The notes below the pieces were generated by a model that worked only from the letters and a program-made list of their open reading frames with translations, searched no databases and was not told where the DNA came from. This document shows positions 3,722 to 14,029 of a stretch of 36,019 nucleotides of DNA, in pieces (within the stretch, counting starts at the first letter, position 1; each line of letters starts with the position of its first letter). The translations under genes were made by a program, and so were the position numbers. The stretch comes from Methanosarcinales archaeon (GTDB lineage: Archaea > Halobacteriota > Methanosarcinia > Methanosarcinales > Methanocomedenaceae): the NCBI GenBank assembly GCA_030610815.1, contig JAUWRA010000005.1:1-36019 (forward strand). Direction: 5' to 3'.

Positions 3722-4045
3722 ATGGATATACAGGTCATAGATTTTGAAAAGGAAGTATGTAAACTGGAATCGCCCCGCCGCCCCCATGATATGGTGTTCA
3801 TTGACGACTCTCTGCTTCGCGCCGTGCTGTGTGAGGGGGAAGGAAAATGGTACGTCCACGATTACGACGAGTTCTTCCTTCACCACAAGGGAGAAGTTGT
3901 CATTGAATCAGACAATTCTACCATTGAGTTGAAACCGGGCACAGGCATACTGGTGCCTGCTGGAGTGCGGCACAGGACCAACTCAGAGGAACCGGCTGTG
4001 TTCTTTGTATTCAGGCACAAGCAGACTGCCTGCATGCTGGCGTAG
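3722..4045 (+). CDS. Cupin-domain protein
   Basis: Cupin-like pattern: FFLHHKGEVVIESDNSTIELKPGTGILVPAGVRHRTNSEEPAVFFVF. Confidence 0.8.
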   Translation: MDIQVIDFEKEVCKLESPRRPHDMVFIDDSLLRAVLCEGEGKWYVHDYDEFFLHHKGEVVIESDNSTIELKPGTGILVPAGVRHRTNSEEPAVFFVFRHKQTACMLA

Positions 4046-4055
4046 GGGAGGATGA

Positions 4056-4688
4056 ATGGGGATGGGTTTCCTGGAAAAACTTGAAGACATTAATCTTCCC
4101 ATAGTCCTGCTCCTGGCCCAACTGGTTACCTATCCTTTTGCCATAGGCATCAGGAACCATGAGGACCCGGTTGGCAATGTTATCAGTGCCCTACTCATCA
4201 TAATTCCTGTATTTGCCATGCTGGGCCTTGTCCTGAGGCTATTTTTTAAAAGGATACATACGGGAAAAAATATGGTGATATTTCTTGACCACAGGGGAGT
4301 TAAGCTTAAAGAGATTCCAGGTCTTATCGGCATCATGATACCCATGTCGTTCGTAATGCTCATCGTGCTGCTTTACGGCATTATCCTCTTCATCTATTTC
4401 TTCTTTATTACCATACCTATGTACCTCATTTTCAGGTTAGGTAAGAAAAAGGGCATGAGGTATCTGCTGAAATGGCTGTTCAGACTGGAGGCAAAGGTAT
4501 GCATAAGGCTTAGGCAGTACGAACGGCTGGGATATGTGCTGCCATTTGTTTTCGGCACACTGTTCTCGCTGGTACTGACCCAGGGACATATAGCGCTGGG
4601 ATTGCTGTACATGCTGATACTGATGCAGTTCTCATTTGTGGTGGCATTGTATAATGTGATCGGGCAGCAGGAAGTGATTGTCGGGTAA
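4056..4688 (+). CDS. Multi-pass membrane protein of unknown function
   Basis: 210 aa with several hydrophobic segments; 10 nt after the cupin gene. Confidence 0.65.
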   Translation: MGMGFLEKLEDINLPIVLLLAQLVTYPFAIGIRNHEDPVGNVISALLIIIPVFAMLGLVLRLFFKRIHTGKNMVIFLDHRGVKLKEIPGLIGIMIPMSFVMLIVLLYGIILFIYFFFITIPMYLIFRLGKKKGMRYLLKWLFRLEAKVCIRLRQYERLGYVLPFVFGTLFSLVLTQGHIALGLLYMLILMQFSFVVALYNVIGQQEVIVG

Positions 4689-4838
4689 ATGGTTTTATCA
4701 GTGTCTTGCCTGATAGATTACTTTTATAAAATTTTTATAAATTTATAACAAATAATCAAATCAATCAAAAGACATAAGTATTTTAAAATTCATGATTATT
4801 ATGCATATCAAAGAAGTTATTTTTAGGAGAGTTGACAA

Positions 4839-5447
4839 ATGGTTTCAGTTGGACAAGAATTATTAAACGTTCCCTTTGGTGAAATGATAAGAGAAATGGC
4901 CCTCGCTATTGCAGAGGGACAGATGGCCCTTGATATGAACTCAGTAAAAGTCGCACAGGCACTCGCAGACACGGAACTGGAAGTAGGAAGCGTGGTGATG
5001 TACATTGAAGAAACTGTTGATGCAGACGGCAACGTCACAGCAACTGATGTGGTTACTAATGATGCGCCCATGTCACTGCTCACCTATGGTCTTGAACCCA
5101 GGTTCTATGAATTTACTGAATCTATCATTGAGGTAAAGATGGCTATCTCAATGAAAAGGGAAATGTCGACTGAGAAAAAATACGGAAGGGAATTCAATTT
5201 AACGAACAAAAGTAAAGTAAGCGGCAGTATTAGTACTGGTGGTTTGACCAGTTTTCTGTTCGGTAAAGCATCTACAAAATTTGAAAATACCACAACAGTG
5301 GCATATTCATCAACCTACGATGCAAAATACAGTTCCAAGTATTCATTCAAAGAATCGGGCACAAGCCTGCTGCGTACCACATTAAAGCCTGTACCCCCCC
5401 CATCCAGAGTAGTACCAACAATAAAAGTTATAGAAGCATCCACATAA
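4839..5447 (+). CDS. DUF2589-like protein, paralogue 1
   Basis: N-terminal ELLNVPFGEMIREMALAIAEGQMALDMNSV, central YEFTESIIEVKMAISMK, C-terminal LKPVPPPSRVVP; good SD (aggag) upstream. Confidence 0.7.
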   Translation: MVSVGQELLNVPFGEMIREMALAIAEGQMALDMNSVKVAQALADTELEVGSVVMYIEETVDADGNVTATDVVTNDAPMSLLTYGLEPRFYEFTESIIEVKMAISMKREMSTEKKYGREFNLTNKSKVSGSISTGGLTSFLFGKASTKFENTTTVAYSSTYDAKYSSKYSFKESGTSLLRTTLKPVPPPSRVVPTIKVIEAST

Positions 5448-5488
5448 CGGTTATCTCCTCCCCATTTATTTTTTTTGGAGATACAATC

Positions 5489-5896
5489 ATGGCCAACAGT
5501 AATACTAAGATAATCTCGGAAGTATTGGTAAATCCTTTATCCAGGATAATCACAGAAGTCGGAAAATCCATTTCCGAAACACAACAGGCAATGGATAGAA
5601 ATTCCATTGACACCCAGCTTGCTATTGATAACGATGAGATTTTGAGCCAATATGATATCCAGGCTACATGGCATCATATTCCAGAGGTAGAACTTGAACT
5701 CAAAATGGCACTCACAATGAAATGCAAAGAAGAAAAAGATTCGAAAGGAGTGATTCGAGGTTATCGGCACATATTACATGCCGCACCATTGAATGCATCA
5801 TATAAAAACTACCATGAATATGATGTGGAAGGGGCAAGTACCGTTAAAGCCAAGTTTGTCTCAATCCCGCCTTCCAGCCAAATTGTGAGTGAATAG
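5489..5896 (+). CDS. DUF2589-like protein, paralogue 2 (shorter)
   Basis: Same three blocks as the upstream gene: VLVNPLSRIITEVGKSISETQQAMDRNSI, HHIPEVELELKMALTMK, AKFVSIPPSSQIV; SD tttggaga. Confidence 0.68.
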   Translation: MANSNTKIISEVLVNPLSRIITEVGKSISETQQAMDRNSIDTQLAIDNDEILSQYDIQATWHHIPEVELELKMALTMKCKEEKDSKGVIRGYRHILHAAPLNASYKNYHEYDVEGASTVKAKFVSIPPSSQIVSE

Positions 5897-7646
5897 ATTC
5901 AGGTATGAGAATGAGGATGATATGACTTTCATTACTAATCTTCGGCAAAACCTGAAAGACCTCAGGATCGCAAAGGAAATTGACGATGCAAGTCTCATCG
6001 AAGTCCGCAATACCATTGATAATGTGGAAGTTGAACTGCAAAACAAGGATAGACTGATAAACGAGCTGAGAAATAATACCAATACTATCATATCTGAGAA
6101 AATCGTGCTCGAACAGGAGAACATTGTCCGGTCGAACCAAATTGCCGGATTATTAGAGGAAAAAGCAAACCTCGAAAATAATATCCGGATACTCCAGCAA
6201 GAGCGAGCACAGATTCCATCGAAAAACCTGGTAACCACGTTCAGGCAATCCCTGGACAGCATGGCCGGAAAGCTTGATGAGCCAGAGTCAAAGGCAAACT
6301 ACATTATCAGCAGCATGAATGTGAAACTAAGGACAAACCTTTCCTTACAAGATGATGAACTCCAGTTCCAGCTGCCTAAGCCAGATGATATCATCCCTCC
6401 TGAAAATCTCAGCACGATTGAATTCACAATAAGATCAACACCTAAAGAACTTGATCTTTCTGAATATATTGAAGTACCAGACCTCACAGGAATGACCTTG
6501 GAAGAGGCAGAGTATGCAATAACTGATGCCGGTTTCAAACCGGGTACGACCAGTGAGAAGAATAGTAATTCACCCCAGGGTATGGTCATTGACCAGATGC
6601 CCTCGGCTTGTTCATTAGCAATCCCCGGGGCTGCCATTGACATAACGATCTCAAAGATCATTTATGTGGAAATGCCAAATATCGTTGGGCTGGATATTGA
6701 CAGTGGAGAGGAGGTTCTAATAAACAGCCAGCTTGAAGTGGGAGAAATTACAGAGCAATCATCAAAATCCACATCAGGAACCATCCTGAACCAAAGTATT
6801 GAGGCAGGAACAAACACATTGATCGGTACGCCTGTTGACATTGTAATAGCAGCAAGAGAAACTGTGGAAGTTCCCGGACTTATCGGTAAAAAGCTGGATA
6901 TGGCAAAATACCTGATACGTTCAGCAAAACTAAAACCTGGGAATATCGTAAAGCAGGTCAGTACAAAGAAAGCAGATACGGTACTTGAACAGGACCCGCC
7001 AGCAGGTACAGCGGTTCTGGAAGGTGAATGTGTGGATCTGGTAATCTCTATTATTGAAGCCCTTAAAGTTCCGGATGTCACTGGAAAGCTCATCAATGAA
7101 GCCAGGACAATACTGGAAAACAAGGAATTGAGAATAGGAAGGATCATTAAACGCACAAGTACCCTGGGTACAGGTACTGTCCTGGACCAGAATCCAAAAG
7201 CCGGTACAGAGGTTGATGCGGGAATGACATTGGACCTGATAGTGGCAAACCAGGATATTGAAATGATCGAAGGTATCGGACCTGAAAGAGGTTCAAAACT
7301 GAAGGATATAGGCATCAATACCATCAAAGACCTGGCTGTTGCAGATACTGAAACTGTGGGTGAACTGGTTGGCAAAAGTACTGCAACGAAATTTATTTCC
7401 ATGGCAAAACTCATTGACAGCACTTCACAAATTGGCAGTTTGGGGATTGACAGGCAATCGTCAGAACTTCTGGTAAAGGCGGGCGGAATCTATTCTGTTG
7501 ATACGCTGAAGAATGCCGAGGCCGGTGAGCTGTACAATTTATGCGAGGAAGCGATTGCTTCAGGCAAAGTAGAGGTTCCAATGGATTATTCCCTTACACA
7601 GGATGCAGTGAAAAGGTGGGTAGAACTGGCACAACCGGATAGATAA
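5889..7646 (+). CDS. Coiled-coil protein with four PASTA repeats and C-terminal helix-hairpin-helix (DUF4332-like) domain
   Basis: GTG start overlapping the upstream stop by 8 nt. PASTA repeats begin VEVPDLTGMTLEEAEYAI, VEMPNIVGLDIDSGEEVL, VEVPGLIGKKLDMAKYLI, LKVPDVTGKLINEARTIL. C-terminus IEMIEGIGPERGSKLKDIGINTIKDLA is HhH-like. Confidence 0.85.
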   Translation: MNRFRYENEDDMTFITNLRQNLKDLRIAKEIDDASLIEVRNTIDNVEVELQNKDRLINELRNNTNTIISEKIVLEQENIVRSNQIAGLLEEKANLENNIRILQQERAQIPSKNLVTTFRQSLDSMAGKLDEPESKANYIISSMNVKLRTNLSLQDDELQFQLPKPDDIIPPENLSTIEFTIRSTPKELDLSEYIEVPDLTGMTLEEAEYAITDAGFKPGTTSEKNSNSPQGMVIDQMPSACSLAIPGAAIDITISKIIYVEMPNIVGLDIDSGEEVLINSQLEVGEITEQSSKSTSGTILNQSIEAGTNTLIGTPVDIVIAARETVEVPGLIGKKLDMAKYLIRSAKLKPGNIVKQVSTKKADTVLEQDPPAGTAVLEGECVDLVISIIEALKVPDVTGKLINEARTILENKELRIGRIIKRTSTLGTGTVLDQNPKAGTEVDAGMTLDLIVANQDIEMIEGIGPERGSKLKDIGINTIKDLAVADTETVGELVGKSTATKFISMAKLIDSTSQIGSLGIDRQSSELLVKAGGIYSVDTLKNAEAGELYNLCEEAIASGKVEVPMDYSLTQDAVKRWVELAQPDR

Positions 7647-7649
7647 AAC

Positions 7650-7892
7650 ATGGTTTTTGAAACCTATCTGATCAGCCTTAATGATAGTATTTCTTCCACT
7701 GAAGTGGAACATATTTTAAAAACACTTACAAGTTTAGGCGGGAATGTCAATATGGTTGTGAAAAGGAGTATCATTGCCAGTTTCGATAGTGCCCATTTGG
7801 ATATCATCAGGAAAAAAACAGGCGTCAAACTGGTAGGCGGCATTAATTTTAAGGGACGAAAGGTAAGGAAGATCGTGAAAAGGGAGTCATGA
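7650..7892 (+). CDS. Small protein resembling the peptidase inhibitor I9 fold
   Basis: 80 aa; [62 protein letters not shown]; starts 3 nt after the PASTA gene. Confidence 0.5.
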
Positions 7893-9222: not shown

Positions 9223-9493
9223 ACGGGTGTTGGTGTTTTCGTAGTTAGGGGGGAAATTATGAAAATTTGTATTGACGGATGAGATGGAAAAACGGGTGGG
9301 AGGTATTGGATACAGGGTTGCGGTAGTTAAGTCTGGGGCATGGTGACTGCGGGATGGATATACTGTGCATCAAATTAAATACTAGAATTAATATATTATA
9401 TATGTTCAAATAACTGGGCACATTTCTATTAAATGATTTGAAATATAAAGATTAAGTAGTATTAAATAACTTCAGAGACCTACATTTTATACT

Positions 9494-10156
9494 TTGGTGG
9501 TAATTTTGCAAATAGAATCTTACGAACCGTATCACATCGGTAATAAGTTAAATCCAGCTACAAATTTTGATAGCTTAAAAAAGAAGTTAAAAGAAAAACT
9601 TCAAACTGCAGAATATAAAATTACTGAAGAAACTCTTTCTGGACAGCAAGTAATTTTTGATAAGCCAATTGAGGTATTGGGTTTAAAAAATGATGTAAGA
9701 ATAGAATTAAATCATTTAGCACAAGCTCTTAATGTAATAGGTACAAATCCAGAGAATGTATCATCAATTTATATGGAAATTAATTCTTTTTTACCTGAAA
9801 TTGGATATGAAATCGAAAATTTATCTTTATTTTTTGAAATTGTTACCTCTATCATAGTAAAATCTGATGGAAAATCCCCAAAAGAAATTCTCAATGATTC
9901 CATAAAATTAAATATGGGTTCTTTTTTTATAAATGATATTCAAAATACAAATATAATTGGAATTCGAATTGGCGGTGAAAATACCGAGAATGATAATAAT
10001 TTTACTTTGTCAATCGAACCAAGTACAACAAGTCCAAATAGTAGATTTATGTTGAATTTACGGTATCGTTCAAAAGATAAAGAAAATATTCAAATATTTC
10101 ACCAAGAATTGGATGAAAAAATTATGCAATTGCTTACTCAATTGGAGTGGAAATGA
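9494..10156 (+). CDS. Hypothetical protein (island module 1, gene A)
   Basis: 220 aa AT-rich ORF; overlaps the next ORF by 10 nt. Confidence 0.65.
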   Translation: MVVILQIESYEPYHIGNKLNPATNFDSLKKKLKEKLQTAEYKITEETLSGQQVIFDKPIEVLGLKNDVRIELNHLAQALNVIGTNPENVSSIYMEINSFLPEIGYEIENLSLFFEIVTSIIVKSDGKSPKEILNDSIKLNMGSFFINDIQNTNIIGIRIGGENTENDNNFTLSIEPSTTSPNSRFMLNLRYRSKDKENIQIFHQELDEKIMQLLTQLEWK

Positions 10157-10770
10157 TATCCATAATTGATAGTACATCAATTCCATTATGTAATGAGGAA
10201 TATATAGATTCAACTACTACTCCAAATAACGAAATTTGTGAAAATTTTAAGTACCAGATGGCAGGTTATTATTTCAAACCTCCAGTATCTTCACTACAAG
10301 TGAGGGATGAACTGACAAATTCATGGTTAGATGATTCTTACTTGAATTCCATTTTAACAATTTTGGAAACTACAGCTTTAGTATCCGAGATTGCTTCAAT
10401 TCAATCTGAAACATCTAGGAGATTATCATTGGAAAAAATCACGGAAGTTAGTTCTGAAATAAGAGAACTTTCAGAAAAAGATGTACATTTCAATAAAATT
10501 TTGGCAAATACTTTAACCGAAGTAGATTTTATATTGGATAAAGATGGGATAAATTATCGAATTAGAGTGGAAATAGAAGAAGATATTGAAATTCCTGAAT
10601 GGAAAGAATTTTTGATTTTAATTCAAATTTCAATTACGAATCACAAAGAACTTGTCCAATTATGGAGAAAAATATCAGAAAATGTTAGGAATAAAATCGA
10701 ATCAATTAAATCTGAAAATGAAATTCTAAGGGAATATAAAAATTTTACAATAATTTTAGAAGAAATTTAA
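10147..10770 (+). CDS. Hypothetical protein (island module 1, gene B)
   Basis: 207 aa AT-rich ORF in an overlapping operon arrangement. Confidence 0.65.
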   Translation: MEMISIIDSTSIPLCNEEYIDSTTTPNNEICENFKYQMAGYYFKPPVSSLQVRDELTNSWLDDSYLNSILTILETTALVSEIASIQSETSRRLSLEKITEVSSEIRELSEKDVHFNKILANTLTEVDFILDKDGINYRIRVEIEEDIEIPEWKEFLILIQISITNHKELVQLWRKISENVRNKIESIKSENEILREYKNFTIILEEI

Positions 10771-10782
10771 TGATTAAATATT

Positions 10783-11139
10783 ATGACCTTCGATCCACTA
10801 CATTTTTTAAATTTAGCAACTAGCTTAAGCGTCGATGAAAAATATGACATTGAAGCAAGATGTAGAACATCTATTAGTAGAGCATATTATGCAGCTCATT
10901 TGATAAGCAGAAATAAATTGGAATCGAAAAGTAGTCGTTTTTCAAAAGACGGAAAAGCTCATGAAGAAGTAATAGAGCAAATGAAGAAAAAAAATCCACA
11001 TATAGGTGATATGCTTTATCAATTAAGAAGAAAAAGAAATGATGCTGATTATAAGTTAAATATAAATTTTTCACCATTTACAACAAATACTTACATTTCT
11101 TATGCCGAAACAATAATAGAAGAAGTAATGGAATTATAA
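10783..11139 (+). CDS. HEPN-domain-like protein (island module 1, gene C)
   Basis: 118 aa, SRAYYAAHLISRNKL followed by LRRKRNDADYKLN, characteristic of small HEPN proteins. Confidence 0.75.
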   Translation: MTFDPLHFLNLATSLSVDEKYDIEARCRTSISRAYYAAHLISRNKLESKSSRFSKDGKAHEEVIEQMKKKNPHIGDMLYQLRRKRNDADYKLNINFSPFTTNTYISYAETIIEEVMEL

Positions 11140-11160
11140 TAATATAAATCATTATTTATA

Positions 11161-11198
11161 ATATTGTGCATTTTTTAAAATATTGTGCATTTTTTAAA
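11161..11198. repeat. Perfect tandem duplication of 19 nt (atattgtgcattttttaaa x2)
   Basis: Direct reading of the sequence after the HEPN gene. Confidence 0.9.
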
Positions 11199-11280
11199 AA
11201 TTTTTATCCAATATAATTATTATGTTTAACTAATTGATGCACGGTCCTGATGCTCCGGATTTTGCGAAACAACCCGGAGA

Positions 11281-11496
11281 GTGTCACTTGAGTTTATAAA
11301 GCAGATTTTGATAAATCCCGAGATAATAAGAAAAGAACTGCATGATACTGAATATTTTCCAACAAGATACCTATGCGAATCGGAATTAAATGAGCATATC
11401 TATCCATGTATTTTAGGTATCGAAAAGTCAGATCAAGGTCTTATTATTGTGATAACTTTGCTCAATCGAAAGAAAAAACGTACATTACGGAAGTGA
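11281..11496 (+). CDS. Small hypothetical protein, possible toxin/antitoxin-type component
   Basis: 71 aa; immediately followed by another small ORF; its 5' end is repeated at 13905. Confidence 0.5.
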   Translation: MSLEFIKQILINPEIIRKELHDTEYFPTRYLCESELNEHIYPCILGIEKSDQGLIIVITLLNRKKKRTLRK

Positions 11497-11500
11497 AAAT

Positions 11501-11677
11501 ATGAAAAAGAATGACGAGTTTGAGGAAGTATACGAAGATGTTGTAATAGAGAACTATGGCATTCCTATAGTTTTTACAGACGTTCTTGTAAGAAAGCACA
11601 AAAGTACGGGAAGAAATATATACTTCAATCATCCGGATTCTATACACAAAATAGAAAAGGGACTGGAATTAGTATAG
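11501..11677 (+). CDS. Small hypothetical protein, partner of the preceding ORF
   Basis: 58 aa MKKNDEFEEVYEDVVIENYGIPIVFTDVLVRKHKSTGRNIYFNHPDSIHKIEKGLELV; 4 nt gap to the upstream ORF; missed by the ORF track. Confidence 0.5.
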   Translation: MKKNDEFEEVYEDVVIENYGIPIVFTDVLVRKHKSTGRNIYFNHPDSIHKIEKGLELV

Positions 11678-11722
11678 AGTTTGAATGAACATCAAATTGC
11701 GCCTAAATTGAAACGTTCAAAA

Positions 11723-11897
11723 CTGCACATACGGTCCACTTGGAGCATTTTCTATAGGCATCGGTAGTACGGACATGGCTGCGGTGTTCGGTACAGGCAG
11801 GGCAGGGCAGTGCCAAGGCTTTTGTGTATCTTTCTTCTCCGGCCACTGCGGCGGCATCTGCACTTACAGGCGAGATTACTGACCCGCGAAGGGGTTA
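11723..11897 (+). pseudogene. Decayed, internally deleted copy of leuC
   Basis: ctGCACATACGGTCCACTTGGAGC...GGCATCGGTAGTACGGACATGGCTGCGGTG matches 8332-8409; then jumps to cagggcagtgccaaggcttttgtgtatctttcttctccggccactgcggcggcatctgcactta, matching 9122-9222, with a frame change at the junction. Confidence 0.9.
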
Positions 11898-12090
11898 AAC
11901 GGGTGTTGATGGTTTGATTGTGGGATGCTTTCTGAAGTTGTTCAGGAAGCATTATACTTAGGTGGGTTCTATGGTATAGATAGGAAGGAATATGCAAATC
12001 TATATTGACGGACGAGATGGAAAAACGGGTGGCAGGTATTATATACAGGCCTACGGTACTTAAGTCCGGGGTATAGTGACTGCGAAATAG
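11898..12090 (+). repeat. Second copy of the leuC downstream flank
   Basis: attgacggacgagatggaaaaacgggtggcaggtatt...acttaagtccggggtatagtgactgcg versus 9273-9352 attgacggatgagatggaaaaacgggtgggaggtatt...gttaagtctggggcatggtgactgcg. Confidence 0.85.
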
Positions 12091-12165
12091 CAAATCTCAT
12101 GCTCGGAAATGAATAGATATATACTATAACTCTATTCTATCTAAAATTAGGCGTGAGGAAATTAA

Positions 12166-13767
12166 ATGTTTTTTGAATCTCCATTAACTGAAGAATTACA
12201 TAAGTATAAAAGAAAAAAGATTAATTCAGAATTTCCAATTTTGAATACTTCCAATTACGCATATTTATCAATCTGGGAATATTTAAATAATATCCCAAAA
12301 AGATTTTACTCTAAAAATGCATGTGAAGATATTTATGATTTTCTCGAAAGTATTAAAGAAGAAGAACCAAACACTCTTGTTGAAATTCTAAATGATTATG
12401 ACAAAATTTTATCTATATGATTTAGATCACTAAGTGAAATTAATTCATTAAACTTTCATGATATGGTATTACCGTCCAATGAATACGATTTAATGAGCTT
12501 CCTTGATATTTATATTCACCCAAATTACTTAAAACTAATTGAGGGAGTGTATTCAAATTTGATACTTCCTATCAGTGCTAATCAACGGATTAAACGAGGA
12601 GCTGGATTCGAAAGATTTGATGTATTTAACCGAGTCGAAGAGTTGAAAGGTACTTCATATAAATATTTATCAACTCCTTATAGTAACACAATCAGAAATG
12701 CAATTGCTCATGGTAAAGTTGTTTTCAAACATGGGAATATTATTTATGAAGATAAAAAGAAAAAAATCGTTTTGTCATCTAGAAATACCATTAATCTATT
12801 CGATGACATGTTAGACATTTCTAATGGATTATCTCTGGGTTTTTGTTTATTTTATTTTACAAACCTAGAATTTCTTGAAGAATATGGCATTAAAATCCCT
12901 CTTCCTATCATGATAGAAGAACTAAGAGCTGAAACTAACGCCCCAGGATGGAAAATCAGAGGATATCTTGAGTCTGAGATATTTGATAATAGAAGTCAAC
13001 TGATAATTTTCGTGAAAAACTGTTTTCTTGACAGAATAATGCTAAATTACCATGTATTCAGTTCAGCTATCTTTGCTGAAAAATTTACTCCTGGTTACCA
13101 AAGATATTTCTTCTCACTCGATTCAAAATATTCCCTGCCTGGATGGGCAGCATTTGATGGATTTGAATTATCTAAATTAAGAAATCAACATATTAATAAT
13201 ATTCAAGATTATTATAAAACTTTAGAGGATGGAATGATATTTTTCATTCCGAAATATAAATTGCCCAGAATCGTTTTTAAGATGGCAACATTTATCTCTA
13301 TTATTAGGATTAATTTACGAGTTACTTGGCGTGAGTTTAAAGAAAACTACTATAAATTATTCATAAAACCAAGAGAGATGACAATTCATCAAAATAAATT
13401 TCATTCTATCATAAAGGGAAGTATTATTGTGAAGCCAAATTCAAATATGCCAATTGATGAGTTGATTCGAAATTATAGTGGGTCCATTGTAAGAAAATCG
13501 ATTAAAACAGCCCGAAAAAATGCAAAAATAACTGATATTTCAAAATACTTACCTGTAGGCTACTTAAGAATTAGTATATATACTAAAGATTTCCGAGTAA
13601 GAAAATTAAAAAACGCTGGTTTAATTCCTGAATTATTATGCACAATTGAATTTAAAAGATTAGAAAGGATTCGAACAATTGATATCATTGGAGGAAGACC
13701 TGAAATAATCAAAAAAATCAGAATTGTCTGGAATGAAAAAGCTAAAATTATTGAGCATTCAGGATAG
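12166..13767 (+). pseudogene. Single ~533-codon reading frame split by one in-frame TGA (12418-12420); HEPN-like motif RNAIAHG
   Basis: ORFs 12166-12420 and 12463-13767 share a frame, and the 42 nt between them are open (FRSLSEINSLNFHD-M). Motif YSNTIRNAIAHGKV. Confidence 0.6.
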
Positions 13768-13904
13768 TCAACTTTTTATAAACATCTTTATAATTAAAAT
13801 CTACGCCTCAATTTTATAAGAAATAAAAAATAGATGGTAATATGATTCCATGAACATCAACTGTATGCCCGGGATTTGAGCGTTAGCGAAATCTAGGGTA
13901 CGTG

Positions 13905-13959
13905 ACTTGAGTTTATAAAGCAGATTTTGATAAATCCAAAAATAAAAAGAAAAGAACTG
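13905..13959 (+). repeat. Truncated copy of the 5' end of the small gene at 11281
   Basis: acttgagtttataaagcagattttgataaatcc identical at 11286-11318 and 13905-13937; then ..agaaaagaactg also shared. Confidence 0.88.
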
Positions 13960-13973
13960 AGCTAATGGTCAGA

Positions 13974-14029
13974 TTCGGCATCAATCGACTACCACGTTGG
14001 TTACAAACTTATCTTAAATTGATGCCGAA
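13974..14029. repeat. 12-bp perfect inverted repeat (TTCGGCATCAAT / ATTGATGCCGAA) with 32-nt spacer
   Basis: Direct reading; lies at the right edge of the island just beyond the stop of 14042-14431. Confidence 0.85.

Follow-up and report, generated by a model that had tools for sequence, protein, structure and literature searches.

The window analysed here is the whole 36,019-nucleotide stretch of a methane-cycling Methanosarcinales archaeon (contig JAUWRA010000005.1, forward strand), to which all unprefixed positions refer. A sequence-only reading had described four co-directional open reading frames between 4839 and 7892, here termed g1 to g4, as a candidate archaeal system, and all four are present where that reading placed them. 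The features of the locus are as follows.

3722-4045: cupin gene, preceding g1
4056-4688: gene for a multi-pass membrane protein (210 aa) outside known families, preceding g1
4839..5447, + strand: g1, DUF2589-superfamily protein, 202 aa
5489..5896, + strand: g2, g1 paralogue lacking the inserted hairpin extension, 135 aa
5889..7646, + strand: g3, protein with coiled coil, N-domain, PASTA and HhH/DUF4332, 585 aa from a GTG start
g3 residues about 15-105: coiled coil
g3 residues about 109-192: conserved N-domain
g3 residues about 195-454: four PASTA repeats
g3 residues 457-582: HhH/DUF4332 C-terminus
7650..7892, + strand: g4, small protein with a weak Inhibitor_I9 profile match, 80 aa

The spacing originally read (41-nt gap, 8-nt overlap, 3-nt gap) holds for the longest ORFs, but the g2-g3 overlap is probably false. 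Conservation of g3 begins at an in-frame ATG at 5922 (M12) with GAGG just upstream, and the upstream start is absent from two relatives. These observations point to ATG 5922 as the probable true start, in which case the g2-g3 spacing would be +25 nt. In related genomes, the four proteins are 65-97% identical and their order is maintained, within a larger order that is largely preserved (cupin, membrane protein, g1, g2, g3, g4, aconitase-family gene). Together with the recurrence of the set elsewhere, this establishes g1 to g4 as genuine genes; the reality of the system is near certain. The cupin gene is retained within the family wherever the contig reaches, the membrane protein gene is missing in L010, and both lie outside the wider g1-g4 set. 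Promoter and terminator scans at the locus gave results near chance.

By hydropathy, all four window proteins are free of signal peptides and transmembrane segments, and transmembrane-like stretches occur in just 9 of the 289 homologue ORFs. Profile searches placed none of g1 to g4 in an enzyme or catalytic family. Pfam hmmscan gave no match above threshold for g1, g2 or g4, and Pfam (2025), NCBIfam (2026), PADLOC and PHROGs hold no above-threshold family for these three proteins or for the g3 N-domain. Beyond the aconitase-family gene lies an AT-rich island (9300-14000, 28-36% GC), whose ORFs lack Pfam matches and include a 118-aa protein weakly like Imm44. The near relative L008 has different genes at this spot (3987-5056), and the island looks like a variable insertion site.

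The paralogous pair g1 and g2 and the small protein g4

Profile-profile comparison with hhalign identifies g1 and g2 as homologues (99.8%, E 2.5e-30), g1 being g2 plus an insertion; across many genomes, the g2 profile matches both flanks of the insertion in g1. Alignment of g1 with genuine PF11655 (DUF2589) members is also significant over nearly the full length (97%, pairwise E 9.9e-11), so that g1, a distant DUF2589 relative, falls in a broad DUF2589 superfamily by homology over the full domain, which g2 enters only via g1 (99.8%). The PF11655 model itself has no match in the whole genome, and places none of 15 g1 members and none of 14 g2 members above its gathering threshold. Direct Pfam assignment to DUF2589 was thus rejected, the support coming from profile-profile comparison only. 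The earlier description of a paired DUF2589-like gene set is correct at the superfamily level, as far as profile homology goes, but not as family membership. A profile search of the PDB with g1 and g4 returned nothing significant.

The AlphaFold2 model of g2, built from 46 sequences, consists of a 47-residue helix (2-48) and a four-stranded antiparallel sheet (pLDDT 79). For g1, the model is of low confidence (pLDDT 59): a helix at 13-44 is fairly confident, and a disordered insert is bracketed by two long strands. The model depicts g1 as a putative g2-type helix and sheet into which a long amphipathic hairpin is inserted. In sequence, the N-terminal helix of g1 is followed by a long Ser/Thr-rich beta-hairpin with the hydrophobic tip LTSFLFGKA. 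Homologues carry a corresponding region of 49-100 residues with 16-40% Ser/Thr and alternating hydrophobicity, and the hydrophobic or aromatic tip recurs as LFGK, GWGPFS, FAIWS and GLWGG, and in DUF2589 as AGWGWGS. The alternation reaches a mean z of 2.6 over 39 sequences, versus about 0 for other window proteins as controls; this test was post hoc and the samples are related, which makes it a lead only.

This hairpin sustains the main rival to the intracellular assembly that we favour below, namely a conflict or stress system in which the g1 (and DUF2589) hairpin inserts into the cell's own membrane while g3 senses or scaffolds and g4 inhibits. The Ser/Thr-rich alternating region and its recurrent tip are what such an effector might display, the patchy distribution, remnants and domain mixing of the gene set fit, and several sub-significant Foldseek matches of the g2 model are to proteins that form pores or rings (SpoIIIAG, CDTb, lysenin, perforin-2 and alpha-hemolysin). 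However, no Foldseek match lies below E 0.09, the best for g2 in the PDB being SpoIIIAG at E 0.098 with nothing significant in BFVD, and no beta-pore-forming family of Pfam matches g1 to g4. Long amphipathic hairpins are also found in soluble assemblies, and g2 lacks the extension. Among known anti-phage defence systems, PADLOC matches in bacterial members are confined to models of PASTA-kinase and coiled-coil type; its PD-T4-6 matches were read as PASTA-driven and rejected. We consider this alternative unlikely.

The sequence-only reading had also called g4 I9-like. A distant profile match agrees with this: g4 and Inhibitor_I9 members can be aligned along most of the g4 protein (84%, E 7.7e-6), and every other profile pair with g4 stays below 1%. 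The Pfam model (PF05922) gives no match above threshold. The resemblance is suggestive.

Domain architecture of g3

The call of four PASTA repeats and an HhH region in g3 is confirmed by hmmscan: PASTA (PF03793) scores 168 bits against a cut-off of 23.2 (3.7e-50, four repeats), DUF4332 (PF14229) 37.4 bits against 23.2 (3.4e-9) and HHH_5 (PF14520) 34.9 bits against 27 (2.2e-8). A match to NF033483 covers the PASTA part only (positions 361-563; 162 bits versus a 450 cut-off). By Pfam, g3 contains no kinase domain of the PknB/Stk1 kind, and its maximal 19-mer hydropathy is 1.52. Within g3 there are no DNA repeats, and profile-profile comparison does not support homology of the N-domain to g1 or g2.

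The homologues show that PASTA does not define the system. The number of PASTA copies in g3 varies between 0 and 14 in archaea and between 0 and 4 in bacteria, where 18 of 28 homologues have none. In Halanaerobiaceae/Bacillaceae, DUF4332/HhH sits at the N-terminus of g2, which can also carry PASTA there. Such movement between g2 and g3, and such variation in number, are as expected of a spacer, and PASTA and HhH behave in the sequences as variable, exchangeable spacers or adaptors. What stays constant is a core made up of the g1/g2 helix-plus-beta module and the g3 N-domain. Giant second g3-like proteins (1324-1526 aa) occur directly upstream of g1 at three loci, those of G175 and of contigs JAENZL and DUKH (L066:9550-13524, L120:932-5512 and L126:659-5167), and the G175 protein (L066) has 12 PASTA repeats by Pfam.

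The HhH region invites a reading in which HhH/DUF4332 of g3 would bind DNA and g1/g2 would coat or compact it, in a nucleoid or segregation role. HHH_5/DUF4332 does recur, fused either to archaeal g3 or to the g2 N-terminus in Bacillota, and coiled-coil members match SMC-like models weakly. Many members lack HhH, however, and the SMC matches are those of a generic coiled coil, which leaves a DNA-tethered structure distinctly unlikely.

PASTA is an established peptidoglycan-binding module, and this counts for an envelope-associated structure whose PASTA, OmpA and LGFP parts would touch the cell wall. One g1-like Archangium protein contains an OmpA domain, a GH108 endolysin (Pfam) adjoins the Pleionea cluster (L171:11159-11668), and an LGFP-repeat protein with a matrixin-like metallopeptidase end lies directly 3' of g3 in Polaromonas (L172:9821-11245). 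Against this stand the lack of signal or transmembrane segments in g1 to g4 of the window, the frequency of the set in archaea that lack peptidoglycan, and the many bacterial g3 homologues devoid of PASTA; an envelope role for the system is improbable. A GH19-like lysozyme gene, recognised by eye, is also found near the Polaromonas cluster (L172:2601-3374).

Distribution, layout and possible transfer

The neighbourhood recurs in other genomes, as the sequence-only reading had required of its own proposal. Of 298 sampled phylum genomes, 25 contain g1 and 23 the g3 N-domain; these two groups of genomes nearly coincide, and the two genes are neighbours in the regions inspected. Within the order, g2 occurs in 43 of 151 genomes (34 of 109 good genomes), and the set is therefore patchy. 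Pattern scanning across 85,488 species genomes yielded 157 g1 relatives; when the loci of the best 80 of these (44 archaeal, 36 bacterial) were scanned with HMMs, most had the same gene set and several others were cut by contig ends. The arrangement g1-(g1b)-g2-g3 with an adjacent g4 extends over Methanosarcinales, ANME-2, haloarchaea, Archaeoglobus, Bathyarchaeota and at least 10 bacterial phyla. Carriers include the bacterial isolates Xenophilus, Archangium, Pleionea, Sandarakinorhabdus and Plastoroseomonas, so the set is not merely a metagenome binning artefact, and the label of an archaeal system proves too narrow.

Archaeal layouts are mostly g1-g2-g3-g4 (29 loci) or, in haloarchaea, g1-g1b-g2-g3-g4. 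Bacterial ones are mostly g4-g1-(g1b)-g2-g3, or g2-g3-g1-g1 in Bacillota, Fibrobacter and a deltaproteobacterial bin. Where detected, g4 adjoins the set, 3' of g3 in most archaea and before g1 in most bacteria. Median gaps between adjacent genes are 41 nt for g1-g2 (61 cases), 11 nt for g2-g3 (66), 5 nt for g3-g4 (36) and -4 nt for g4-g1 (17). The 79 bacterial neighbours include no recurrent partner family beyond TPR and families present as pairs or singletons, among the 25 of 70 families listed.

Paralogue expansion is seen in bacteria: the Pleionea cluster encodes seven proteins of g1/g2 type, the Archangium cluster six. A structural gene cluster of many paralogues with an endolysin gene, as in Pleionea, might recall a provirus, tailocin or other phage-derived module. 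Yet g1 relatives are absent from 50,697 phage records and from a pattern scan of 2.9 million viral contigs, g1 and g2 have no PHROG match, and tail, capsid and portal genes were not noticed in the window; such an origin is very improbable.

Maximum-likelihood analysis of g1 intermingles archaeal and bacterial sequences at strongly supported nodes. Methanocalculus groups with a proteobacterial bin (100/100), Halorubrum with Gemmatimonadota/Chloroflexota/Sandarakinorhabdus (100/99) and Methanophagales with WOR-3/Spirochaetes (97/85). This interleaving suggests transfer of the set between domains, with the qualification that some tree partners are bins and that more than one change is no proof. 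The system also decays in some lineages: certain Methanosarcina-type genomes are left with pieces only, or with a copy interrupted in frame by a stop codon. Such g1/g2 remnants lie at L080:6087-6293 and in G136 (C85:112-661), one of them containing an in-frame TAA. In Methanosarcinaceae (L068:9326-12504, also L069, L070 and L078-L080), the operon or its remnant adjoins the L3-L4-...-L2 cluster of ribosomal protein genes, recognised by Pfam in L068 and, in the remaining loci, from gene lengths that match.

Proposed assembly and comparison with known systems

With no signal or membrane segments and no enzyme domain in the four window proteins, we favour an accessory system, exchanged horizontally, whose proteins form a single heteromeric assembly inside the cell (ring, tube or filament), a reading to which we give somewhat less than even confidence. 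The helix-plus-sheet modules of g1 and g2 would co-polymerise through their edges, g3 would join the polymer via its N-domain, and the coiled coil and PASTA array of g3 might form a variable-length spacer acting as scaffold or ruler. The HhH domain could bind DNA or a protein, and the I9-like g4 may be an assembly chaperone or cap. A cytoplasmic scaffold, as originally inferred, remains the best mechanism and is still inference; what is established for it comprises sequence homology, operon structure and the predicted fold of g2.

Several observations are consistent with an assembly: the maintained operon layout and the same set in archaea and bacteria, g1/g2 homology with the g2 model and the bacterial paralogue expansions, DUF2589 clusters of the same layout, mobile HhH/DUF4332 and PASTA modules with variable PASTA number, and window proteins that contain neither transmembrane-like segments nor a catalytic family. 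Others speak against it, namely the low confidence of the g1 model and the lack of a significant Foldseek relative, an HhH region that suggests DNA contact, needless for a pure scaffold, and the OmpA domain, endolysin and LGFP/metallopeptidase neighbour, which may point towards the envelope in some bacteria. A bolder version is doubtful: a cross-domain machine in which a DUF2589-superfamily hetero-oligomer would use g1-type beta-hairpins to form a large beta-barrel or tube, with a coiled-coil/PASTA/HhH ruler and an I9-like chaperone, and of which DUF2589 clusters would be a second lineage. In any case, a compact operon is common to archaea and at least 10 bacterial phyla and its genes have apparently crossed between domains together; should the assembly reading hold, the operon would represent a new class of intracellular protein structure.

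We know of no described system with the g1-g4 gene set, and none was found. In the open-access literature searched, DUF2589 appears in one paper, in passing, with description elsewhere possible; DUF4332 is likewise named in one paper, and on archaeal PASTA proteins no relevant paper turned up. Like PASTA Ser/Thr kinases and PBPs (PknB/Stk1, PBP2x), g3 has tandem PASTA repeats with strong HMM scores, but it carries no kinase, transmembrane or PBP domain, and its PASTA repeats are dispensable. Like the subtilisin propeptide/Inhibitor_I9, g4 aligns over most of its length, whereas the operon contains no subtilase and the Pfam I9 model misses g4. A possible likeness to Trypco2-bearing NTP-dependent conflict systems (PMC7159879) comes from one g1-family member that scores Trypco2 at E 0.011, a lead only, with 0 of 149 genomes matched; unlike in those systems, no trypsin-like protease, MoxR or vWA is present among the 25 of 70 neighbour families listed.

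A further likeness is to DUF2589 (PF11655). In Archaeoglobi, haloarchaea and others, DUF2589 genes come as neighbouring pairs with a third gene after them. In one such cluster (L099), the third gene carries an HhH-like stretch (SVDAVRGIGPEFSNDLEAAGVESIADLV, recognised by eye), and the Archaeoglobus-type third gene gives a weak profile alignment to the N-domain of g3 (41%, E 2.8e-4). On these grounds, the DUF2589 clusters may represent a second lineage of such systems. In Archaeoglobus fulgidus, AF0414-AF0417, called DUF2589-related, are reported as specifically up-regulated on lactate (PMC3949148). The two kinds of cluster differ in that g1/g2 stay below the Pfam threshold, that the g1-g4 set adds the PASTA/coiled-coil partner and g4, and that different genomes are matched in the phylum sample. 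They agree in the homology of g1 and in pairs of adjacent paralogues with a third gene, sometimes with HhH. Even without the assembly reading, this two-lineage layout (g1-g2-g3 and DUF2589-DUF2589-third gene) offers a way to approach a widespread DUF by experiment.
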